From: Rhodospirillales bacterium
Lineage (GTDB): Bacteria > Pseudomonadota > Alphaproteobacteria > Dongiales > Dongiaceae
Assembly (NCBI GenBank): GCA_009885795.1
Contig: VFKA01000003.1
Location: 62,001 to 126,000, forward strand
Direction: 5' to 3'
DNA length: 64,000 nucleotides
Shown: in pieces, positions 24,821-40,024 of the stretch
Position numbering within the stretch: position 1 is the stretch's first letter
Layout of the letters: every line of letters starts with the position of its first letter
The notes under the pieces: generated by a model
What the model saw: only the letters and a program-made list of their open reading frames with translations
The model's database searches: none
What the model was told of the DNA's origin: nothing
Made by a program: the position numbers and the translations under genes

Positions 24821-24836
24821 TGGCACGATTCTGGCA
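24821..24836 (+). promoter_or_regulatory. Sigma-54 promoter of the flgI operon
   Basis: TGGCACGATTCTGGCA has a perfect -24 half (TGGCACG) and GG-N10-GC spacing, 46 bp before the chosen flgI start at 24883. It is expected to drive flgI-flgJ-flgN-flgK-flgL. Confidence 0.8.
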
Positions 24837-28233: not shown

Positions 28234-29190
28234 ATGGTTGCCATCACGACCTACGGCCAATATCTGCAGTCGGTCAACAACATCAAGAGCGGACAGTCGT
28301 CCCTTCTCGATCTTGGGCGCCAACTCGCCACCGGGCGCAAGGCCGAGGACATCTCGGCCTATGGCACGCAAGGGTCGCGGCTCATCGATCTTCGCGCCTT
28401 CATCGCGCGGCGCGAAAATTACCTGAAATCGATCGACGTGGTCGAAATGCGGCTGAAGGCATACGACACCACGCTGAATGGCATCGACAAGGCGACCCGC
28501 GGCCTCGAGCAGCTGCTGTCCGGAGCGGATACCTTTCAGCAGGCCACCGACGCCGGACTCGACGCGAAGATCGCCAACTTGATGAAGGACGTGCGCTTCT
28601 ATCTCAACCAGGAAATGGGCGATCGCTACCTGTTCGCCGGTGCGCGCTATGGCACCGAGCCGGTCGCCGACCTCGAAACGCTGGCGGTGCCGGCGGCGGT
28701 CCCGCCTCCGCCGGTTGTCGCCGACCCGGTTCTCGCCGATTTCGACACGCAAGCCCCCGGCGCCGACAGCAATGCCTGGACCGAGGAAAAATTCAGCGCC
28801 GACGACGGTCTCGTGGTCCAGTATGGCGTCAACGCGCAACACCCGGCGTTCCAGGACCTGATCATGGCGCTGCGCTATGCCAAGGCCGCCGCCAACGACA
28901 ACGTCAATTTCGGCACCTACATGGCGGGCGCGCGCCAGCTCATCGCCAGCGCCATGACCGAGCTTCGCGCGGTTCGCAACGAAGTCGCCGTGGACACCGG
29001 AACCATCGGCAACGCGCGCCAGTTCCACCGCACCGCGCTCGACCTGCTGCAGACCGAGCAATCGTCGATCGAGGGCATCGACCTCGCCGAGGTCGGCGTC
29101 AAGGTCAACGTCCTGCAAACCCAGATCGAGGCCAGCTACGCCGTCACAAGGACCCTGGGCGAGCTGACGCTGGTGAACTTCCTGAGATAG
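28234..29190 (+). CDS. flgL: FlgL-type hook-filament junction protein
   Basis: FlgL is the second junction protein. The 318-residue product has flagellin-like ends: an N-terminal GQSSLLDLGRQLATGRKAED (as in flagellin SGL-type segments) and a C-terminal GVKVNVLQTQIEASYAVTRT then LGELTLVNFLR. The phrase GDRYLFAGARYGTEPVADL is typical of FlgL. A Pro-rich insertion lies around residues 155-175. It is the last gene of the flgI operon. Confidence 0.93.
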   Translation: MVAITTYGQYLQSVNNIKSGQSSLLDLGRQLATGRKAEDISAYGTQGSRLIDLRAFIARRENYLKSIDVVEMRLKAYDTTLNGIDKATRGLEQLLSGADTFQQATDAGLDAKIANLMKDVRFYLNQEMGDRYLFAGARYGTEPVADLETLAVPAAVPPPPVVADPVLADFDTQAPGADSNAWTEEKFSADDGLVVQYGVNAQHPAFQDLIMALRYAKAAANDNVNFGTYMAGARQLIASAMTELRAVRNEVAVDTGTIGNARQFHRTALDLLQTEQSSIEGIDLAEVGVKVNVLQTQIEASYAVTRTLGELTLVNFLR

Positions 29191-29736: not shown

Positions 29737-31686
29737 TCACCCAACGGCGGCGAGAAGAACCTGCTGGCGCGAGGCAAAATCGCGGAGCATGGCGGCGGTC
29801 TCCTCGCACATGAAGCGGCAGATCGCCTTGTACTCCTCGACATAGACCTCGAACAGGCGCTGGCGGTGTTCCGGTTCGGAGAGGCGCAGGCCGTAGAAGA
29901 GGCCGATGCGCGTGAGCGAGCTGATCGAGCCCACGGGAATCGAGCAGCCGCCGCGATAGAGGCTGCCCGCGCGGGCCAGGAATTTGTGGACCTCGGTGTA
30001 GATTTCGGCGAAGCTTCCGCCCTCGTCCGCCACCCGATCGACCAGCGCGCAAACGTCGCCGAGAAGATTGTCCATCTCGTCGGCGACCGACGAAAAATCG
30101 ACGCCATTCGTCATGTCGCCCGGCGCGACCTTCGCCAGCCTCTGGCGCAGCTCCGCCTTGGCCCGGCCGGCCTCGATGGGGCGGTCGGCGAGATCGACAC
30201 TCTCCGGCAGCTTCGGGATGGCCTGCTCGATCAGCGCCCCGTCGCTGCAATTGTAGGCGGTCAGGTCGCGCAGGCGGATCACCTGGTTCAGCATGCCGCA
30301 GCTCCAGTCGAGCAGCCAATCGGTGAAGGCAACGCCGCCGAAATTGGCCAACACCTCGGTCGGATACTTGAAATTCTTGGCCTTGTCCCGCCAGGCGTCG
30401 ACGTCGTGATAGACCGAATCGCGCGAATGGTTGGCGGCGCCTTCGCGCACGCCGCAATCGATCCCGAAGAGATAGTATTCGGTGAAGCCGAAGATCGAGG
30501 CCAAGGTCAGCGCCGTGTTGGCGACGGTGGGGGCGGCACCCAGCACCTCCCGGCGCCCGCGCGACAGCATGACGGTCGAGCTGACGCTGTCGCGGAAGAA
30601 GAAGAACGTCTCGCCGAACAGCGGGGGCACGCTCGGATGGACCGTGTAGGTCGTGACCAGCGTGATCTTCTTGAGATCGCCGTGCTGGGCGGCCAGCGAC
30701 AGCACCTCGGGCACCCAGGCGCCGTTCTCGATCTCGACGTGAAAGTCGGGCGTGATGCCCTGGCGCAGCAGCACGCGCAGGCCCGTGCCGCAGGATATGA
30801 CGACCGCCCGGTCGCGCCAGCGCCGGATCGTCGGGATCGAGGCGTCCACCGAGGGGCCGGAGCCGACGATGAAGACCGGTTCCGAGCGCTGCAACATCGG
30901 CTGGCCATCGACGAAATGGGCCGGATGCTCGATCATGTTGGCGACCGCGTTCCCCGACATGATCAGCTCGTCCTCGTAGAAGCCGCGGGCCAGGAACCGG
31001 CGATCCACCGAATCGATGAAGCGCTCGCGCGCGTTCTTGAGCGTCCACAACGGATGATGGATAAAGGCAAAGGACCCGTCGAGGAAACCGATGCCGATGG
31101 CATCGATTTCATCCATGAGCCAGGTGTTGATGCGCTGCGGGTCGGTCTCGCAACTAAGCTTGATCCGGACGCCGAGTTTGTCCGCCTCGTCGAACAAGTC
31201 TTGCCAATCGATGGCCTGGAGCGATCCGTGCAAGAGGTCCGGAAGCGGTTCCACGAGGAACACCCATTTGGCCTTCGTCTCGGCGATCAGGCGGCGCAGA
31301 TGATGGCCGAGGCCGACACCATAGACGACCAGGAAATAGCTTCCGGTCGACGGGAACCGGTCGAGCAGCGGCTGGCCCATGTCGACCAGCTCCCGGCGCA
31401 TGCGCTCGAGCATGCGCATGCCCACGGGAGAGCCGAGCCCAGCGCCGCGGGGATCCGAAACGCCAAAGCGAAGCGGCTTCTTCAGGAACGTCTCGACTTG
31501 TTCATCGGCGATGGTCCGGCCGTCGCCGTCATAGAGACGCTGCTCGCCGACCTTGAGATCGACGATGACGCCGTCGGCGTAAATGGGTTCGATGTCCGCG
31601 CCGGCATCCTTCACTTCGGCGTGAATACGCGGGAAACGCTCGGCCAAGGCGGCAAGCGAACGGGTGAGGCGCTCGGTCTGCGACAT
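29737..31686 (-). CDS. maf: Maf-like flagellin glycosyltransferase (DUF115 / MptE-like)
   Basis: The 649-residue product belongs to the motility accessory factor family, which transfers nonulosonic acids from CMP donors to flagellin in the cytoplasm. The central DUF115 domain shows PVFIVGSGPSVDASIPTIRR (about residue 285) and VVISCGTGLRVLLRQGITPD, then FGIDCGVREG; an N-terminal extension with SYFLVVYGVGLGHHLRRLIA and a helical C-terminus complete the usual Maf layout. It lies 3 bp after an FlmG-like gene and downstream of three flagellins. The legionaminate operon at 40.5-49.5 kb should supply its donor. Confidence 0.88.
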   Translation of the reverse strand: MSQTERLTRSLAALAERFPRIHAEVKDAGADIEPIYADGVIVDLKVGEQRLYDGDGRTIADEQVETFLKKPLRFGVSDPRGAGLGSPVGMRMLERMRRELVDMGQPLLDRFPSTGSYFLVVYGVGLGHHLRRLIAETKAKWVFLVEPLPDLLHGSLQAIDWQDLFDEADKLGVRIKLSCETDPQRINTWLMDEIDAIGIGFLDGSFAFIHHPLWTLKNARERFIDSVDRRFLARGFYEDELIMSGNAVANMIEHPAHFVDGQPMLQRSEPVFIVGSGPSVDASIPTIRRWRDRAVVISCGTGLRVLLRQGITPDFHVEIENGAWVPEVLSLAAQHGDLKKITLVTTYTVHPSVPPLFGETFFFFRDSVSSTVMLSRGRREVLGAAPTVANTALTLASIFGFTEYYLFGIDCGVREGAANHSRDSVYHDVDAWRDKAKNFKYPTEVLANFGGVAFTDWLLDWSCGMLNQVIRLRDLTAYNCSDGALIEQAIPKLPESVDLADRPIEAGRAKAELRQRLAKVAPGDMTNGVDFSSVADEMDNLLGDVCALVDRVADEGGSFAEIYTEVHKFLARAGSLYRGGCSIPVGSISSLTRIGLFYGLRLSEPEHRQRLFEVYVEEYKAICRFMCEETAAMLRDFASRQQVLLAAVG

Positions 31687-31689
31687 GAT

Positions 31690-33543
31690 CTATCCGCGAT
31701 GGGCGGCCACGGCCGCGGTGATGGCGTCGGCAAGGGGCCGGCGAATGAAGCGATCGGAGCGCGCCGCGGTCTCGGCCGCCTGGCGCAAGGCGAGATGTCG
31801 GTCGCGATCCGCGGCGATTGCCGCGGCAAGCGGCGGCAATTGCTCGGGCGCGGCGACGACGCAATCGGGCAGCACGGCCGCCACCGCGGCGGCGGCGGCA
31901 TTGCGCGGATCGCCGGGGCGGCACCAGGCAAGAACGGGCGTTCCTTGCGCGAGCGCGTCGATCGCCGCGCGGGCCGAGGAATCGCCAAGCGGGGCCACCG
32001 CCAAGCCCAATTGGGAATAAAACTCCGGCACCGGCTCGGTCAGAAGATTGACGCGCGAAACACGCTCGCGCCCCAACGCTTCGATCAGGCGTTCGCTCAC
32101 CACGCCATGGCTCAACCCGCCGTCACGCAGGGCGAGCTGACTGTCCGGCACCGCATCGAGCAAACCCGCAAGCAAGGTCAGCATGGACTGGGAGAGATGA
32201 CGTGGCTGAAGGTCGAGGCCGATCTGAAAGGCACCGCCCGGTTGGGCACGCGACCCCGAGAGACGCTCGGCCGGCATGGCGATATCGGCCGCGCCGGAAT
32301 CGAGAATGAAGCTGTCGCCGCCGGCCGCGCTCGCTGGCGCGATGACGCGGTCGTAGAGACCAGGCAGAGCGAAGGCTGGCGCCCCGATCCAACCCAGGCG
32401 CAGGCAATTGCGGGTGCGCGCCAATGCGGCCGGACCCAAGGGAAACGAAAACCCGGTGGCGTCGATGACGGCATCGAGATTCTCGCGGTCCAACATCAGC
32501 GCCAGCGTCGCCAGATCGAGCCTTGAGATGTCGCGCCAGCGGTCGAAGGCGCCACGCAAGAGGGCATTGTGCGGCCAGCGCATGTCGCCTAGGCCGAACC
32601 CGTGCACGACGACGCGCGATCGATCGAAGGCGCGCGCGAGGTCGGCCACGGCCGCCCTGTCCCCCGGCGGGAGCGCGCCGGCGACGAGCATGCCGATCCG
32701 AATCTTGCCTTCGCGCCGTGGCGACGGGCTGGTCTCGCGCGGAGGGCAGAACCGTTCCACCCAGTTCCACGCCACCTCGGCAAGCGCATCGGTATCCGGC
32801 TCGTACCAGCGCGCGTCGGCCACCTGGCGGCCGGCGATAACCGGATCCTCCGGAGCGAATGTTACCGCCGCTTCGTGAGCCAATTTCGCGTGGTCGAGTA
32901 CACCGGCCCCGGCGAAGGCCATCGCCGCCAGACTCATGTCGGCCGGGCTCTCGGTTTCGAGCAACGGTACGCAAGCCAACGCCGCCTCGCCCGGCCGGTC
33001 GAGAACGATCAGGAGTTCGGTCATACGCCGGCGCGCGGGTAGATCCCCCGGCGCTACGCGCAGGTGCTGCTCCAGCCGCCCCACGGCATTGGCGAAATCG
33101 CCGAATTGCTCCAGCCGCCGCGCGGCACGCGCCAAGGGATGATCGTCGATGCCGAGGAAAGCCTGGCCGAAGGAGGGAAAGTCGGGCGGCAGGAAATCCG
33201 CGGTGGCGTCGTCGAGACCGAGCGCGGTCGCGAGCTTGCCGTAATAGAGGCTTTCCTGCAGTTCGCCGACTTGAGCGTAGAGAGAAGCCAAGGCCTCGAC
33301 ATAGGTGCCGTTCCTGGGCGCGGCCTCGTGCGCCGCCTTTACCTGGTCGATGGCGTCGGCATGATTGGCCAGCCGCCAGGCGAGCAGGCCGAGAAGAAAG
33401 CGGGCGCCGGTCGAATCCGGATTGACTTGGATTTCGGCCTCTATGGCATCGGTGGCGGATTCGAGTTCGCCTTGCGCAAGGCGGCGCGCGGCAATCCGCA
33501 ATGCCGCGTTGCCTGGCGACGCATGTTCCCCCGATGCCTGCAT
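31690..33543 (-). CDS. flmG: FlmG-like flagellin glycosyltransferase (TPR + SPINDLY/GT41-like)
   Basis: The 617-residue product has N-terminal TPRs (ALRIAARRLAQGELESATDA; LEQFGDFANAVGRLEQHLRV) that in Caulobacter FlmG bind flagellin. A GT-B, O-GlcNAc-transferase-like C-terminal half follows (KIRIGMLVAGALPPGDRAAV; DAVIDATGFSFPLGPAALAR; LAQGTPVLAWCRPGDPRNAA). Length and layout match FlmG, which attaches a nonulosonic acid to flagellins. The ATG at 33543 is 12 bp after flaF copy 1. It is encoded directly beside a Maf-type enzyme, which is unusual because either one alone can glycosylate flagellin elsewhere. Confidence 0.85.
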   Translation of the reverse strand: MQASGEHASPGNAALRIAARRLAQGELESATDAIEAEIQVNPDSTGARFLLGLLAWRLANHADAIDQVKAAHEAAPRNGTYVEALASLYAQVGELQESLYYGKLATALGLDDATADFLPPDFPSFGQAFLGIDDHPLARAARRLEQFGDFANAVGRLEQHLRVAPGDLPARRRMTELLIVLDRPGEAALACVPLLETESPADMSLAAMAFAGAGVLDHAKLAHEAAVTFAPEDPVIAGRQVADARWYEPDTDALAEVAWNWVERFCPPRETSPSPRREGKIRIGMLVAGALPPGDRAAVADLARAFDRSRVVVHGFGLGDMRWPHNALLRGAFDRWRDISRLDLATLALMLDRENLDAVIDATGFSFPLGPAALARTRNCLRLGWIGAPAFALPGLYDRVIAPASAAGGDSFILDSGAADIAMPAERLSGSRAQPGGAFQIGLDLQPRHLSQSMLTLLAGLLDAVPDSQLALRDGGLSHGVVSERLIEALGRERVSRVNLLTEPVPEFYSQLGLAVAPLGDSSARAAIDALAQGTPVLAWCRPGDPRNAAAAAVAAVLPDCVVAAPEQLPPLAAAIAADRDRHLALRQAAETAARSDRFIRRPLADAITAAVAAHRG

Positions 33544-33554
33544 TGTGTCTGGCG

Positions 33555-33968
33555 TCAAATACGCTCGTTGACGGCGATACGCGGTGCCTCGGCCGCGGGA
33601 ACCGGCGCCGTGGCCTTCGGCGTCGCCAGGAGGCCGCCGCCGATTTGAAGATTGATGTTGATGAGGGCGCTCAGCTTCTCCGGAAGCGGATCGCCGATGA
33701 CCTCGGCCGAGCGGCGGTCGATGAAGTTGGCAAGCGACAGCATGTTGCCGCGAAGTTCTTTCGGCACGCCGCATTCCGGATCGACGAGGCTCGCCTGGAA
33801 TATGGTCCACAGGCGCCAATTGAGACGCACGGCGGCAAGCACGGATTCCGCGGCGCCGTTGCGCTGGGCGTCTTGCAGGCGGCGCGCCGATTCGAGCAGC
33901 GCCCACCCTTCGGTGTTGCGCGGATTGCCTTCGGCCGGCAGGCGGTTATACGCGGTCGCCATACGCAT
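33555..33968 (-). CDS. flaF: FlaF flagellin export/assembly factor, copy 1
   Basis: FlaF is a flagellin-specific secretion factor in alphaproteobacteria that also opposes FlbT. The 137-residue product has the family core LNWRLWTIFQASL and VPKELRGNMLSLANFIDRRS, followed by INLQIGGGL and a variable tail. The ATG at 33968 has an AGGAG 7 nt upstream and overlaps flbT copy 1 by 23 bp, so the two are coupled. It belongs to the flagellin A module. Confidence 0.93.
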   Translation of the reverse strand: MRMATAYNRLPAEGNPRNTEGWALLESARRLQDAQRNGAAESVLAAVRLNWRLWTIFQASLVDPECGVPKELRGNMLSLANFIDRRSAEVIGDPLPEKLSALININLQIGGGLLATPKATAPVPAAEAPRIAVNERI

Positions 33969-34344
33969 TGAGAATCTCCTGTTCGCGCTCGATGAGACGT
34001 CGTGCCTTGCGAAGCGCCTGGTACAGCCGGCCAGCCTCCACTTCGGCGCTTACCTCCTGGGCCACCCCCGACGCGCTGGGCGCGGCTTCGATGAATTCTC
34101 CCAAGAATGTGTAAAAGGTCGGTAAAAATGTATCGATCTTGGAAGGAAACAGGTAAGCGCATTGAAGCGCGTAGTAGATGCGTTGCGCCGGCGAGAGATC
34201 CTGGTCCTCGGCGAGAATCTCCTTCTCGCGCAGCAGGCTCGCCTCGTTGTGGACGATGAGTTGCCCGCTGGCGTCGCCGTTTTGGAGCACGGCGCCGTTG
34301 ACGATGATCTTCTCGTTCGGCTTCAAGCTGATCTTGAGCGGCAT
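33946..34344 (-). CDS. flbT: FlbT flagellin translation regulator, copy 1
   Basis: FlbT binds the 5' leader of flagellin mRNA and represses its translation in Caulobacter. The 132-residue product has the family N-terminus PLKISLKPNEKIIVNGAVLQNG and the block PAQRIYYALQCAYLFPSKID, with a helical C-terminus. It is a clear paralog of copy 2 (37382-37783); the first 40 residues differ at only a handful of positions. A strong GAGGAGGG ribosome-binding site precedes it. It follows flagellin A after a GC-rich stem-loop. Confidence 0.94.
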   Translation of the reverse strand: MPLKISLKPNEKIIVNGAVLQNGDASGQLIVHNEASLLREKEILAEDQDLSPAQRIYYALQCAYLFPSKIDTFLPTFYTFLGEFIEAAPSASGVAQEVSAEVEAGRLYQALRKARRLIEREQEILNAYGDRV

Positions 34345-34417
34345 TCTGCCCTCCTCGCATGGTCTGCGCGAGAGTACTTTCTGCCTCGGAAATGGTTACT
34401 AAAGCGTTGCCGGCGTC

Positions 34418-34441
34418 GGGGAGGGCGTCGCCGCCCTCCCC
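34418..34441 (-). other. GC-rich stem-loop between flagellin A and flbT copy 1
   Basis: A perfect 10-bp stem, GGGGAGGGCG with CGCCCTCCCC and a 4-nt loop, 19 bp after the flagellin A stop. There is no T-tract, so it is more likely an mRNA 3'-stabiliser or attenuator that lowers flbT/flaF relative to flagellin than a full terminator. Confidence 0.6.
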
Positions 34442-34459
34442 TTCGTCCGACCGTCGGGT

Positions 34460-35335
34460 TTAACGGAACAGTGACAGCACGGCCCGCTCGCTCTGTGCCG
34501 CGAAGGACAGAGCTTGCAGGGACAGCTGCTGGCGCGTCTGGAGCGAAACCAAGTTGGCGCCTTCCTCGTTGATGTCGGCCAGCACGAGCTTGCCCGAACC
34601 CTCATCGAGTGTCTTCACGTACTGCTTCGTGAAGTCGAGGCGGGTGGCCAAGAACGTGACGTTCGCACCGAGCGAGGATGCCGCGCTGCGAAGCGTGGTG
34701 ACGGCGCCGTCGAGGACGGCCAGGCCCTTGTCGTACTGGCTGGCGAGTGGCGCCAAGGTGGCGAGCGCCGCGCTCCAGGACCGGGTAACGACTTGGGTCG
34801 CGATCAACGAACCGAGAGCCGCGGCGGTGCCGGTGATCAGCTTCGAGGCCAACAGATTCCGGCCCGTAATATCGAGCTTCGCGGCCGAGCGGTTGGAGAA
34901 GTTGACGGTCAGTTTCGTGGCCGTCGAGTTGGTCAGGTTGAGGCCCTGGTAGGACGTATCCTGAACCAACTGGGTGAGCTGCGCGCCCAGGGTGTTGAAC
35001 TGCTTCCTGAGGTCGGCCCGTTCCTTCGCCGTGGCGCTCTTGGCGGTCGAAATGATACCCTTGAGCTGCTTGACGATGCGGTCGGCCGCCTCGATGCCGC
35101 TGGTGGCGGCCTTCACCGAGGAGATCGCCTGATCGATCTGGCTCTTGCGGTCATTGAAGTCGACCGAACGATCGGTCAGCGTCTTCGACTGGAAGAACGA
35201 CACCGCGTCGTCGATGGCGCTGTTGACGCGCTTGCCCGTGGACAAGCGGTTCTGCGTGCGGTCGAGCAGGTCGTTGGTGGCCTGCAACGTCAGCAAGTTG
35301 GTTTTGATAGCGGAAGATAGCGAAATAGAAGCCAT
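34460..35335 (-). CDS. Flagellin (copy A)
   Basis: This is a filament subunit of 291 residues, a compact flagellin with small outer domains. The N-terminal D0/D1 reads LTLQATNDLLDRTQNRLSTG KRV, and the C-terminal D0/D1 has DINEEGANLVSLQTRQQLSLQALSFAAQSE and ends LSLFR. It is the most divergent of the three copies; B and C are closer to each other. A consensus sigma-54 promoter lies 58 bp upstream and the leader resembles that of flagellin C. It is followed by its own flbT and flaF. Likely glycosylated on Ser/Thr by the adjacent transferases (inference). Confidence 0.97.
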   Translation of the reverse strand: MASISLSSAIKTNLLTLQATNDLLDRTQNRLSTGKRVNSAIDDAVSFFQSKTLTDRSVDFNDRKSQIDQAISSVKAATSGIEAADRIVKQLKGIISTAKSATAKERADLRKQFNTLGAQLTQLVQDTSYQGLNLTNSTATKLTVNFSNRSAAKLDITGRNLLASKLITGTAAALGSLIATQVVTRSWSAALATLAPLASQYDKGLAVLDGAVTTLRSAASSLGANVTFLATRLDFTKQYVKTLDEGSGKLVLADINEEGANLVSLQTRQQLSLQALSFAAQSERAVLSLFR

Positions 35336-35392
35336 GGGAATCCTCCATTCTGGCGGGTTGGTAGACGGGCGCTTTGCACCCGTGCCTTTCGT

Positions 35393-35408
35393 TGCAAAAG
35401 GCGTGCCA
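35393..35408 (-). promoter_or_regulatory. Sigma-54 promoter of flagellin A
   Basis: On the coding strand, TGGCACGCCTTTTGCA, a full match to TGGCACG-N4-TTGCA, ending 57 bp before the flagellin A start. Confidence 0.85.
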
Positions 35409-35532
35409 GAACGGCGGCGGCCGCAAGGGCCGATCCGTTAACTAAGATTGATCAACAATTGCCGCGCGATCTCGGAATCGGCATTAACCGGATCGCAAGC
35501 CGGGTGAGCAGCGGCTGCCGGGCAAAAATTTC

Positions 35533-35952
35533 CTAGCCGGCAACTCTTGCCCGCTTTTCCTCGCCGCCAATGTCTTCAACTCGGCCGGCATCGGCGCCGG
35601 ATGCATTCAACATACCGCCGCCAACCTCCAGGTTGATGCGCACGAGGGCGTCGAGCAGTTCCGGCTTGGGGTCGGCGATGATCTCGGCCGAGCGGCGGTC
35701 GATGAAATTCGCCAGCGACAGCATCTTGACCCTCAGGTCATCGGGCAAGCCGCAATGGGAATCCGACAGGCTCGCTTGGAAAATCGTCCATAGGCGCCAA
35801 TTCAATTGCGCCGCGCCGAGCACGGCCTCGCCGGTTCGGGCCTTGCGGGCCTCGTCGAGCCGGCGGGCGGCCTCGAGCAGCGCCCAACCTTCGGTGCGCC
35901 GCGGATTGCCGGGTGCGGGACGTTGGGCGGACAATGGTTCGATCACGGACAT
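35533..35952 (-). CDS. flaF: FlaF flagellin export/assembly factor, copy 2
   Basis: The 139-residue FlaF paralog has the core LNWRLWTIFQASLSDSHCGL and RVKMLSLANFIDRRSAEIIA, close to copy 1. It follows flagellin B by 81 bp with no flbT between them, unlike the other two modules, and no flbT remnant is visible in that gap. An AAGGAG lies 10 nt before the ATG. It is presumably the secretion factor matched to flagellin B. Confidence 0.92.
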   Translation of the reverse strand: MSVIEPLSAQRPAPGNPRRTEGWALLEAARRLDEARKARTGEAVLGAAQLNWRLWTIFQASLSDSHCGLPDDLRVKMLSLANFIDRRSAEIIADPKPELLDALVRINLEVGGGMLNASGADAGRVEDIGGEEKRARVAG

Positions 35953-36033
35953 GGTTCGATTACTCCTTCTGAAATCGGCCGATCATGGGTGGCTTTCTTG
36001 CCGTCGGCGCGGGTGGTCCCGGTCTGTTACGAA

Positions 36034-36900
36034 CTACCTGAAGAGTTGAAGGATCGAGCGCTCGCTCTCGCCGGCGAAGGAGAGCGCCTGAAGCCCTAGC
36101 TGCTGGCGGGTCTGCAGCGATACGAGATTGGCGCCTTCCTCGTTGATGTCGGCCAGCGTCAGCTTGCCGGCGCCATCGTCCATGATCCGCACATACTCCT
36201 TGGAGAAATCGAGGCGGGTCTGCAGGAAGGTGACGTTGGCGCCAACGCTGGACGCGGCGTTACGCAGGGTCGAGATCGCGGCGTCCAAGATCTTGATGCC
36301 CTGGTCGAACAAGCTGAGGACGATGCTGGGCGCCGAACTCCAGGCGAGCGTGACGACTTGCGTCGCCGCCACCGAGCCGAGCGCGGCCGCAGCCCCGGTG
36401 ATCAGCTTCGAAACCCGAAGATTGCGCCCGAGGATATCCATCTTCGAGGTCGAGTTGGTCGAGAAACTGACCGTGAGCTTGGAGCCACTCGAATTCAGCA
36501 GGTTGAGGCCCTGATAGGAAGCGTCGCCGATCAACTCCGAGAGCTGCTTGGCCAAGGTATTGAACTGATCGCGCAGCGACACCCGTTCCTTGGCCGTCGC
36601 GGTCTTGGCGCTGGTGATGATGGCCTTCAGCTGCTTGGTGACCTTGTCCGCCGCGTCGATGCCATTGACGGCCGCTTTCAGCGACGAAATGGCCTGGTCG
36701 ATCTCGTTCTTGCGGGCGTTCAGGTCGATCGATCTTTCGGAGATCGTCTTGGCCTGAAAGAAGGCCACGGCATCGTCGAGGGCGTTGTTGACGCGCTTGC
36801 CCGAAGCCAACCGGTCCTGCGTTCGGTCGAGCAAATTGTTGGTCCGCTGCAACGACAGAAGATTGTTGCGGATGCTGGCGGAAAGGGCGACGTCGGACAT
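36034..36900 (-). CDS. Flagellin (copy B)
   Basis: This is a 288-residue compact flagellin with N-terminal LLSLQRTNNLLDRTQDRLAS and C-terminal GANLVSLQTRQQLGLQALSF ending LQLFR. It is closely similar to copy C along its full length, and the D1 segment EEGANLVSLQTRQQL is shared by all three. It has no sigma-54 element of its own: only 30 bp separate it from flaF copy 3, so it should be read through from the flagellin C promoter. Expression may therefore be lower or later than A and C. Confidence 0.97.
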   Translation of the reverse strand: MSDVALSASIRNNLLSLQRTNNLLDRTQDRLASGKRVNNALDDAVAFFQAKTISERSIDLNARKNEIDQAISSLKAAVNGIDAADKVTKQLKAIITSAKTATAKERVSLRDQFNTLAKQLSELIGDASYQGLNLLNSSGSKLTVSFSTNSTSKMDILGRNLRVSKLITGAAAALGSVAATQVVTLAWSSAPSIVLSLFDQGIKILDAAISTLRNAASSVGANVTFLQTRLDFSKEYVRIMDDGAGKLTLADINEEGANLVSLQTRQQLGLQALSFAGESERSILQLFR

Positions 36901-36930
36901 GGCGGATTCTCCGTTATCTGTTCAAGGCCG

Positions 36931-37407
36931 TCATTTCGCGACGGCGGCGGCGGCGTAAGTACGCATTCCGGCCCGCCGCGGCTCGCGCGGCTCGGCCGAT
37001 CGTTCGACCCGCCTGCGATTCCCGCGGTCGGCGGGCATGACTTGGTCGGTGAGCGCCTTGCCCAGCATGCCGCTGCCGACTTGCAGGTTGATGCGCACCA
37101 GGGCGTCGAGTTGCTCCGGGATAGGGTCGGACAGAACTTCGGCGGTCCGCCGATCGACGAAATTGGCCAACAGCAGCATGTTGACCCGGAGATCCTCCGG
37201 CAGCCCGCAGGCGGGGTCGCCGAGGCTTTCGCCGAAGATGATCCACAACCGCCAATTCAGGGCCGCGGCGGCCAGCATGGCATCCTTCGACCGGCTTTTC
37301 CTGGCGTCCTCGAGCTGGCGCGCCACTTCGATGAGGGCCCAGCTCTCGGTCTTTTTCGGGTTGCCCTCGGAGGGCGGGCGGTTAGACGGCGCCGGATTCG
37401 TAGGCAT
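36931..37407 (-). CDS. flaF: FlaF flagellin export/assembly factor, copy 3
   Basis: This is the longest FlaF paralog, 158 residues. The core LNWRLWIIFGESLGDPACGL and DLRVNMLLLANFVDRRTAEV is recognisable but more diverged than copies 1 and 2. The extra length is a basic Arg-rich tail (DRGNRRRVERSAEPREPRRA) absent from the others. Its start overlaps flbT copy 2 by 26 bp. It closes the flagellin C module. Confidence 0.9.
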   Translation of the reverse strand: MPTNPAPSNRPPSEGNPKKTESWALIEVARQLEDARKSRSKDAMLAAAALNWRLWIIFGESLGDPACGLPEDLRVNMLLLANFVDRRTAEVLSDPIPEQLDALVRINLQVGSGMLGKALTDQVMPADRGNRRRVERSAEPREPRRAGMRTYAAAAVAK

Positions 37408-37783
37408 CGATGATCTCCTTTTCCTTGGTCATGAGGCGCTTGGCTTTGCGAAGCGCCTGATAGAGCCGATCCGCTTTCACGTCGCCGCGGATATCGGCCA
37501 CGAGGGTGTGCGCGCTGGGCGCCGCTTCGGCGAACGCCGTCAGGAACTGCTCGCACGACCCAAGAAACGTCTGCAACTTCTCGGGAAACAAGTAGGCGCA
37601 TTGAAGGGCGTAGTAGACGCGCCGCGCCGGGGTAGCGCTTTCGTCCTCCGTGAGAATGTCTTTCTCGCGCAGGAGACTCGCCTCGTTGTGCACGACCAGC
37701 TGTCCGTGCGTATCCCCGTTCTGAAGCACGGCGCCGTTGACGATGATTCTTTCGTTCGGCTTGAGGCTGATCTTGAGGGGCAT
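37382..37783 (-). CDS. flbT: FlbT flagellin translation regulator, copy 2
   Basis: The 133-residue FlbT paralog has PLKISLKPNERIIVNGAVLQ and PARRVYYALQCAYLFPEKLQ, nearly identical to copy 1 in the N-terminal half and diverged in the C-terminal helix. It begins 62 bp after flagellin C and overlaps flaF copy 3. Two FlbT proteins imply either dosage or separate recognition of different flagellin leaders. Confidence 0.94.
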   Translation of the reverse strand: MPLKISLKPNERIIVNGAVLQNGDTHGQLVVHNEASLLREKDILTEDESATPARRVYYALQCAYLFPEKLQTFLGSCEQFLTAFAEAAPSAHTLVADIRGDVKADRLYQALRKAKRLMTKEKEIIDAYESGAV

Positions 37784-37821
37784 TCTCTACTCCGTCGGTC
37801 CTGGCCTGGTTTGGATCGTCG

Positions 37822-37853
37822 CTCGCGCTCTAACGGACTCGCGCTCTAACGGA
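37822..37853. repeat. 16-bp tandem duplication at the flagellin C stop
   Basis: CTCGCGCTCTAACGGA occurs twice in direct tandem (37822-37837 and 37838-37853). The duplicated unit contains the flagellin C stop codon, so the protein is unchanged and the second copy lies in the 3' untranslated part. Confidence 0.9.
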
Positions 37854-38712
37854 AGAGCTGGAGGATCGACCGCTCGCTCTCGCCGGCAAAGGCGAGCGCT
37901 TGCAGGGCCAGTTGCTGGCGCGTCTGCAGCGACACGAGATTGGCGCCTTCCTCGTTGATGTCGGCCAGCGTCAGCTTGCCGGCGCCTTCCTCCATGATCC
38001 GCACGTACTCCTTGGAGAAATCGAGGCGCGTTTGCAGGAACGTGACGTTCGAGCTCAGGGTCGATGTCGCGTTCCGCAGCGTCGAGATCGCCGCGTCCAG
38101 GATGGCGACGCCTTTGTCGAACCGGCTGAGGATGAGGGTCGGCGCCGAGCTCCAGGCGATCGTGACGACCTGGGTCGCCGCAACCGATCCAAGCGCCGCC
38201 GCGGTGCCGGTGATCAGCTTCGAGGCCAGCAGGTTTCGCCCGAGGATGTCGATCTTGGCCTGGGAGCGGGTGGAGAAGTTGACGGTCAACTTCGCCGAAG
38301 TCGAATTCAGCAGGCTGAGGCCCTGATAGGAAGAGTCCCTGACGAGCTCGGAGAGCTGGGCCGCGAGCGTATTGAACTGCTTGCGAAGCTCGATGCGTTC
38401 CTTGCCCGAGGCGGTCTTGGCCGTGGTGAGGATGCCCTTCAGCTGCTTGGCCACCCGATCGGCGGATTCGATGCCGGTGACGGAGGTCTTCAGCGCCGAA
38501 ATCGCCTGGTCGATCTCGTTCTTGCGCGTGGTGATGTCGGTCGAGCGCTCGCTGAGCGTCTTGGCCTGAAAGAACGAGACGGCGTCGTCGAGGGCATTGT
38601 TGACCCGCTTGCCCGAAGCCAATCGGTCCTGGGTGCGGTCGAGCAGGGAGTTCGTGCGCTGCAAGGACAGCAGATTGCTACGAACACTCCCGGAAAGAGC
38701 GATATCGGACAT
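37846..38712 (-). CDS. Flagellin (copy C)
   Basis: This is a 288-residue compact flagellin. It has N-terminal LLSLQRTNSLLDRTQDRLAS, middle LGRNLLASKLITGTAAALGS and C-terminal GANLVSLQTRQQLALQALAF ending LQLFR. Very similar to copy B. A consensus sigma-54 promoter precedes it by 60 bp. It is the first gene of a run that continues through flbT copy 2, flaF copy 3, flagellin B and flaF copy 2. Confidence 0.97.
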   Translation of the reverse strand: MSDIALSGSVRSNLLSLQRTNSLLDRTQDRLASGKRVNNALDDAVSFFQAKTLSERSTDITTRKNEIDQAISALKTSVTGIESADRVAKQLKGILTTAKTASGKERIELRKQFNTLAAQLSELVRDSSYQGLSLLNSTSAKLTVNFSTRSQAKIDILGRNLLASKLITGTAAALGSVAATQVVTIAWSSAPTLILSRFDKGVAILDAAISTLRNATSTLSSNVTFLQTRLDFSKEYVRIMEEGAGKLTLADINEEGANLVSLQTRQQLALQALAFAGESERSILQLFR

Positions 38713-38771: not shown

Positions 38772-38787
38772 AGCAACGGCCGTGCCA
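38772..38787 (-). promoter_or_regulatory. Sigma-54 promoter of flagellin C
   Basis: On the coding strand, TGGCACGGCCGTTGCT, a full match to TGGCACG-N4-TTGCW, ending 59 bp before the flagellin C start. Confidence 0.85.
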
Positions 38788-38965: not shown

Positions 38966-40024
38966 TTAGAAAGAGCGGCTGGTGAAGCCGAGCTTGTCGA
39001 GGATGGTATCGGAGAGCGGCGGCTCGGGCGCGAACATGCTGCGGATGCGCACCAAAGCGGTCTGGCTGGAGAGTGCCATGTTGACCGCCGTCAGGTCTAT
39101 CTTGGCCTGCAGCGACGCTTCGAGCGCCCCCTGCTCGGTCAACTGTCTCTCGAGTAGGGCACCCATGATCTTGTTGTCGTCTTCGAGAGCGAGCGTGGCG
39201 CTGCCCAGCGCGCCCAAGGATGTCGCCTCGGCGATCCCCAGATTTGTCTCGATACGCTTGAGGGTCTGTTGGGCGGCCGACAGATCGTCCATGGCGCGCT
39301 GGCGAAAGGCGACGGACTCGGCCGAGGCGTCCGAAGGCAGATTGCCGTAGAGGAACGAGTTGGCGAGGCCAAGGCCGCCCCGGTTCACGGTCGCCGTGAA
39401 GGTGGGGCCGGCGCCGGATTGCGTGGTAAAGGTCACGCTGTCGCCCGATCCCGAGACATACTGAAATTCGCGGACCGCGTAAGTGACGCCGTTGATGCTG
39501 GCGGTTTCGTCCCGCGGGTCCACCTCCGAGATCGAGCCGCCGACATCGAGCGTATAGGTCACGGCCAGCGACTGCGTTTGAATGGCGACCTCGCTGCGGC
39601 CAAGCGGATAGACCACGGTGCGCTGGCCCGTGCTGTCCAGCCGCCGGCGTCCAATGAGATTGTTCGCGTCGATGTTGGCGCTGCCAACGAAGGAATTCAG
39701 TTCCAGCAGCGCGCTGTCGAAAGCCGCCGGATCGCCTTTCTGCGCCGCCGCCTTGGCCTCGCCCAACCAGAATCGAATGTCCGTAATCGGCTTCTGGGCG
39801 TTGCGAATGTGCACCAACGCCGTGTCGATATCGTCCCTCAACCTGAGACGCTTATCGACTTGATCCTGTTGGATCGTGAGCTCGATGCCATGGTCGGACG
39901 CCTGGCGGCGCAGCTCGACTTGCGCCCGGGCTTCCATCCGACCCCTGGTCATGATGAGCGCGCGTTCGAGCTGGAAATTGAACAGCTGATACTGCTGCGT
40001 GAAACCGATGGTGAAATCCGCCAT
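38966..40024 (-). CDS. Unrecognised flagellin-like protein of the flagellin locus
   Basis: I do not recognise this 352-residue protein. Its ends are helical and flagellin/FlgL-like: an N-terminal QQYQLFNFQLERALIMTRGR with following heptads, and a C-terminal LQAKIDLTAVNMALSSQTALVRIRSMF that resembles the flagellin D0 end. The middle (about 140-245) is beta-rich (VAIQTQSLAVTYTLDVGGSI; DSVTFTTQSGAGPTFTATVN). It has no signal peptide. A perfect CtrA site is 25 bp before the ATG. Possible roles: minor filament or cap subunit, or flagellin-mimic factor for export or glycosylation. None is shown by the sequence. Confidence 0.75.
   Translation of the reverse strand: MADFTIGFTQQYQLFNFQLERALIMTRGRMEARAQVELRRQASDHGIELTIQQDQVDKRLRLRDDIDTALVHIRNAQKPITDIRFWLGEAKAAAQKGDPAAFDSALLELNSFVGSANIDANNLIGRRRLDSTGQRTVVYPLGRSEVAIQTQSLAVTYTLDVGGSISEVDPRDETASINGVTYAVREFQYVSGSGDSVTFTTQSGAGPTFTATVNRGGLGLANSFLYGNLPSDASAESVAFRQRAMDDLSAAQQTLKRIETNLGIAEATSLGALGSATLALEDDNKIMGALLERQLTEQGALEASLQAKIDLTAVNMALSSQTALVRIRSMFAPEPPLSDTILDKLGFTSRSF

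Follow-up and report, generated by a model that had tools for sequence, protein, structure and literature searches.

A known counterpart of the locus considered here is the flagellin system of Caulobacter crescentus (FljJKLMNO, FlbT, FlaF and FlmG). Its flagellin genes depend on RpoN, and the 5' untranslated region (5' UTR) of flagellin mRNA is bound by FlbT (PMC3930126). A single FlaF is the export chaperone that binds all six flagellins, one FlmG likewise serves all of them, and FlbT binds only FljJ, a special flagellin with which it represses the others (PMC7591256). The action of FlbT differs between species, with mRNA decay in Caulobacter and activation proposed in Brucella, and the literature still treats its mode of regulating flagellin mRNA as unresolved (PMC4347634). 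The present analysis concerns an array of flagellin, flbT and flaF genes, each in more than one copy, in a Rhodospirillales bacterium of the family Dongiaceae (assembly GCA_009885795.1, contig VFKA01000003.1, positions 62,001 to 126,000; this 64-kb stretch is called the window).

Read as transcribed, on the minus strand, the array runs flagellin C, flbT2, flaF3, flagellin B, flaF2, flagellin A, flbT1 and flaF1, and genes for an FlmG-like protein and the flagellin glycosyltransferase Maf follow. Caulobacter offers a likeness in that its flagellins need RpoN, its FlbT works through the 5' UTR, its FlaF is an export chaperone and its FlmG is of the tetratricopeptide repeat (TPR) type. However, it has one FlaF for six flagellins, an FlbT that works with FljJ and an FlmG without Maf, whereas the window has three FlaF and an FlmG-like protein together with Maf. 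Desertibaculum subflavum, Zavarzinia and related Rhodospirillales metagenome-assembled genomes share with the flagellin A module its gene order, leader hairpin, flbT/flaF spacing and upstream sigma-54 site (69-76 bp from the flagellin in Desertibaculum, Zavarzinia and loci L075-L079). Their loci hold one module, in contrast to the three flagellins, three FlaF and two FlbT of the window. The array was probably built from a single sigma-54 locus that two tandem duplications expanded into two units with one flbT each.

Duplication of the flagellin module

The first-pass annotation of the window had proposed this eight-gene order and a layout of three repeated units, and the open reading frames and their Pfam families bear out both. 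Flagellins C (37846-38712, 288 residues), B (36034-36900, 288 residues) and A (34460-35335, 291 residues) each carry N-terminal PF00669 and C-terminal PF00700 above the curated Pfam cut-offs. The two FlbT copies, flbT2 (37382-37783, 133 residues, expect value (E) 1.3e-37) and flbT1 (33946-34344, 132 residues, E 1.7e-36), are full-length PF07378 proteins scoring 129 and 125.4 bits against a cut-off of 27. The three FlaF proteins match PF07309 at 75-88 bits (cut-off 23.6): flaF3 (36931-37407, 158 residues, E 5.6e-21) starts inside the end of flbT2 with a 26-nt overlap, flaF1 (33555-33968, 137 residues, E 5.9e-25) starts inside the end of flbT1 with a 23-nt overlap, and flaF2 (35533-35952, 139 residues, E 6.5e-22) has its own ribosome-binding site outside the upstream genes, with AGAAGGAG upstream. 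The C and A units thus each hold a complete flagellin-flbT-flaF module in that gene order; the B unit lacks flbT. The 81-bp gap between flagellin B and flaF2 (35953-36033) was said to hold no flbT remnant, and this stands: it resembles neither flbT more than shuffles do (0.43 and 0.63 of them scored as well or better), and a remnant is rejected.

Whole-genome searches of the assembly (3.46 Mb, 103 contigs, 99.9% complete) for FlbT, FlaF and flagellin domains found no FlbT or FlaF beyond the array copies, and the sole other flagellin-domain match was FlgL. Protein identities are 79% for flagellins C and B, 68% for C and A, 66% for B and A, 52-55% among the FlaF proteins and 66% between the FlbT proteins; the copies are too divergent for an assembly duplication artefact, which is ruled out.

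Maximum-likelihood trees of the three families, with paired support values and approximately unbiased (AU) topology tests, provide the check that the first-pass annotation had proposed, and they agree with one another. The flagellins branch as (A,(B,C)), at 100/100 for the three and 100/99 for B with C, and the FlaF proteins as (F1,(F2,F3)), at 98/92 and 100/99; for FlaF, topology tests reject a grouping of F1 with F2 and of F1 with F3 (AU p 0.002 and 0.004). The two FlbT proteins are sisters (97/82), their nearest outside relative being the FlbT of Desertibaculum subflavum, which is 64% identical to FlbT1. In the full-set trees, the copies of each family form a clade exclusive of every other sampled genome. 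These congruent trees and exclusive clades uphold the claim of tandem duplication of a flagellin-flbT-flaF module with a middle unit lacking flbT, and from the sequences the local origin of the copies is well supported.

The A module is probably the ancestral one because the single locus of the relatives is colinear with it. One locus of the order flagellin-flbT-flaF-FlmG-like-Maf, with its flagellin in the place of A, is found in Desertibaculum subflavum (L073), L076, L110 and L113; L077-L079 and L112 have it in part, and L074 has a version with two flagellins. The branches of FlaF1 (the shortest of the FlaF copies) and FlbT1 are shorter than those of FlaF2, FlaF3 and FlbT2, which fits an ancestral A-flbT1-flaF1 module with the others derived.

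Over their 3' ends (36034-36225 and 37846-38037), the genes of flagellins B and C are 88-94% identical in DNA as against 69-84% elsewhere in the gene, and they share an identical run of 53 nt near the 3' end, matched in length by 18 of 5000 shuffles. Gene conversion between the two genes near the 3' end is likely on this pattern. When the last quarter of the flagellin gene is left out, B and C still group together (95/92), and B as sister of A is rejected even then (AU 0.011). Dating of the duplications by synonymous changes gave saturated or unstable estimates.

Promoters and the missing flbT

The sigma-54 consensus TGGCACG-N4-TTGCW was searched throughout the window. Two perfect sites only were found, against 0.02 expected, and none of 100 shuffles had two: one lies upstream of flagellin C (38772-38787, minus strand, TGGCACGGCCGTTGCT) and the other upstream of flagellin A (35393-35408, minus strand, TGGCACGCCTTTTGCA). 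RpoN itself is encoded elsewhere in the genome. Upstream of B there is no sigma-54 site, the best candidate having four mismatches, which is at chance level. The flanks upstream of C and of A are homologous across promoter and leader (0 of 500 shuffles), while the 30 bp between flaF3 and B (36901-36930) match the upstream region of C in the ribosome-binding region only (p 0.016, a weak signal). No sigma-70-like site was found in the region, and terminator-like sites were not above shuffles, so that a sigma-70 promoter or terminator splitting B or A from the genes upstream was set aside. One further near-consensus sigma-54 site, with one mismatch, lies just before flgI (24821-24836, plus strand) and could be due to chance.

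The simplest reading of these sequences is two operons, C-flbT2-flaF3-B-flaF2, headed by C, and A-flbT1-flaF1-flmG-maf, headed by A, each presumably co-transcribed and each with one flbT. As perfect sigma-54 promoters stand only at C and A, there appears to be one FlbT for each transcription unit, with B probably going with flbT2. The missing flbT is most simply explained by the place of B in the operon of C. The first-pass annotation had suggested that two flagellins have their own translational repressor while B escapes or borrows one. That claim is revised here, in that B probably shares the flbT2 of its operon and no escape from FlbT is called for. Nor is it safe to describe FlbT just as a repressor, given the difference between Caulobacter and Brucella described above (PMC4347634). 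More widely, sites with at most two mismatches at 50-140 bp stand before just 3 of 196 flbT or flaF starts. One flbT per sigma-54 unit is not a general rule, as it fails in f125 genomes.

The leader hairpin

A 19-nt hairpin of 8 bp with an AAA loop (35365-35383, minus strand) opens the 5' leader of the flagellin A mRNA and is a candidate regulatory element. In L073-L079, hairpins of 8 bp with an RAA loop likewise open the leader of the first flagellin of the locus, at a near-constant distance to the promoter (L073:8933-8951, L074:8648-8666, L075:6150-6168, L076:8015-8033, L077:415-433, L078:577-595 and L079:1791-1809). Across these eight leaders, 96.9% of the cells are paired and four pairs change on both sides, with 9 double changes (0 of 500 shuffles), whereas structures slid along the alignment reach at most 50% pairing. 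A covariance model built from the same eight sequences finds the leader of A as its sole significant match in the window (E 2e-4) and one top match in each of L073-L079; since the matched leaders built the model, the absence of other good matches is the informative part. No Rfam family matches the hairpin at A, the best for the region being isrG at E 0.32, which is chance level.

The leader of C holds a decayed homologue of the hairpin (z +0.85), and the 30-bp gap upstream of B holds none. In Zavarzinia, the leaders carry a similar hairpin whose loop differs (AGAA). A motif of the GCRAAGC type is absent from the leaders of the other arrays (L053-L060), so that the hairpin is not a universal FlbT target. 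By analogy with Caulobacter, where FlbT acts on the flagellin 5' UTR, the hairpin of the A leader may be an FlbT target in this group. A bolder proposal is that it is the RNA element read by FlbT here, in which case an intact hairpin at A, a decayed one at C and none at B would point to two FlbT paralogues with split targets and to graded translational control of A, C and B; this is offered tentatively, as a possibility on the doubtful side.

Copy numbers and arrays across the Alphaproteobacteria

Among 387 genomes sampled across the class, 142 carry FlbT and 143 carry FlaF. That most alphaproteobacteria have a single flbT and flaF is confirmed, with one FlbT in 125 of the 142 and one FlaF in 104 of the 143. 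At least two FlbT occur in 17/142, at least two FlaF in 39/143 and at least three FlaF in 12/143. Single copies are therefore the rule, multiple copies are not rare, and flaF multiplies more often than flbT. In Desertibaculum's order, every one of the 18 genomes carries a single FlbT. Relatives in the window's own family carry either a single copy each of FlbT and FlaF or none, and the layout of three flagellins, three FlaF and two FlbT was seen in the window genome only, the sole sampled member of its genus.

Loci with several flaF or flbT copies recur across the class as several independent arrays. L055 and L060 are arranged as flagellin-flbT-flaF-flagellin-flbT-flaF-flagellin, L053 and L054 as flagellin-flbT-flaF-flaF-flagellin-flagellin-flbT, and L056-L059 have consecutive flbT-flaF pairs. 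Like the window, these arrays interleave two FlbT and two FlaF with two to three flagellins within a few kb. Unlike it, they were duplicated separately, each set branching apart from the window, and none was seen to have the window's order with its two FlbT and three copies each of FlaF and flagellin. In Sneathiella and f100 loci (L146, L148, L151, L071, L072), a flagellin is followed by its own flaF without flbT, as in B-flaF2; the second such pair has its own sigma-54 site in four of five loci, whereas the window's B has none. No paper on duplicated flaF/flbT arrays was recognised from titles and abstracts. The array of the window is a lineage-specific elaboration of a known module, not a new system.

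Two side observations arose from the sampled loci. A second, longer-branched FlbT lineage runs across f90 and f125 genomes (L056-L059, L055) and suggests an older, separately maintained split of FlbT. Further, the locus L091 (CP051228.1), titled Mesoflavibacter sp. (Bacteroidota), is an alphaproteobacterial flagellin locus that groups with a Rhodospirillaceae metagenome-assembled genome, and the record is probably misnamed.

A model for the array and its alternatives

In the history that we favour, the array began as one sigma-54-driven locus of the order flagellin-flbT-flaF-flmG-maf. A first duplication would have placed a second flagellin-flbT-flaF module upstream, the ancestor of C and B, and a second would have turned this upstream module into C and B, the B unit being without promoter, leader and flbT. 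RpoN would activate both units in the late flagellar phase, and FlbT would act post-transcriptionally, presumably by contact with the 5' leader of the first flagellin of each message. The FlaF proteins would deliver the flagellins for export, probably with overlapping specificity and in shared use, and FlmG and Maf would glycosylate them. B would be made from the message of C, need no flbT of its own and probably share the flbT2 of the operon. The A unit would have kept the ancestral leader hairpin and the slowly evolving FlbT and FlaF, while C and B, as derived copies, could be set differently.

Several observations weigh against this history. Without the last quarter of the gene, an A+C grouping of the flagellins is not rejected (AU 0.124); neither is a grouping of FlbT1 with the Desertibaculum FlbT (AU 0.10), and a reduced FlaF tree supports the clade of three copies at just 94/66. 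Because of these results, the order of the duplications is less firm than their local origin. A promoter of another type may lie before B or flaF2, and the f125 genomes contain two consecutive flbT genes without an intervening flagellin or flagellin promoter. In view of the different FlbT types found in the rest of the window's family, the whole locus may also have entered the lineage by transfer before it duplicated.

One alternative is gene dosage, in which the duplications brought more flagellin, FlaF and FlbT without any division of labour and the loss of flbT from B was neutral. The three flagellins are indeed of similar size and share one domain layout, multi-copy flbT is rarer elsewhere than multi-copy flaF, and flbT-less flagellin-flaF pairs also occur in L071, L072 and Sneathiella. 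Mere dosage is nevertheless unlikely in view of the strong and uneven divergence of the copies, with longer FlaF2, FlaF3 and FlbT2 branches, and of a hairpin that A has retained, that is degenerate at C and that B lacks.

The first-pass annotation had suggested cognate pairing, with a dedicated FlaF for each flagellin and a dedicated FlbT for A and for C; the three modules would then be insulated. The flagellin and FlaF trees are congruent, one FlaF has been kept per flagellin with the invariant and nearly invariant alignment columns of the family intact in all three, and purifying selection is seen in every pair (by the NG86 method). However, co-duplication by itself yields congruent trees, and because the one FlaF of Caulobacter binds all six flagellins, congruence here speaks for co-duplication and not for cognate binding. 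Moreover, 31 of the 104 single-FlaF genomes have at least four Flagellin_N matches (counts that include FlgL). Flagellins B and C agree at 60 of their 64 C-terminal residues (94%), the cores of FlaF2 and FlaF3 are only 65% identical, and it is hard to see how these two FlaF proteins would discriminate by that end. Strict pairing is thus improbable and the earlier claim of a matched FlaF for each flagellin is not sustained; sharing of FlaF is the more likely arrangement. If there is specialisation, its most likely line runs between A on one side and B with C on the other.

Transfer of the extra modules from another lineage to a place beside the resident module fits the other FlbT types of family members, but such a separate origin is disfavoured by the single exclusive clade that the copies of each family form in the full-set trees, and is very unlikely.

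Neighbouring genes

Downstream of flaF1 lie the FlmG-like gene (31690-33543, minus strand) and maf (29737-31686, minus strand; PF20157 E 3e-37, PF01973 E 2e-29), in an order kept in relatives; as a pair (29737-33543) they are conserved in many of them. The FlmG-like protein would join an N-terminal TPR region to a C-terminal glycosyltransferase-like half of GT-B type; its TPR matches are weak and Pfam does not recognise the glycosyltransferase half. Its position adjoining flaF is conserved, and a model made from it has matches immediately downstream of flaF in Desertibaculum (324 bits) and in other relatives. FlgL is encoded on the opposite strand to the array (28234-29190, plus strand; flagellin-domain match at 28243), preceded by genes for FlgK, FlgI, FlgH and FlgA. 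Upstream of the array, a 352-residue protein (38966-40024, minus strand) has no Pfam, NCBIfam or PHROGs match; homologues with 25-26% identity directly follow Maf in Zavarzinia (L110, L112, L113). Its predicted helix-beta-helix layout resembles that of a flagellin or hook-associated protein, in an AlphaFold model whose predicted local distance difference test (pLDDT) score of 41.7 is too low to rely on.

Implications

The number of flbT copies may track transcription units rather than flagellins, and gene order should be used with caution as a sign of cognate pairs. Of the whole locus, it is the conserved leader hairpin that most deserves to be followed. Its intact, decayed and absent states across three paralogous flagellins, together with its covariation in relatives, open a direct test of FlbT regulation, and if the hairpin is the element that FlbT reads, the array would be a natural experiment in which A keeps it, C has let it decay and B has none.

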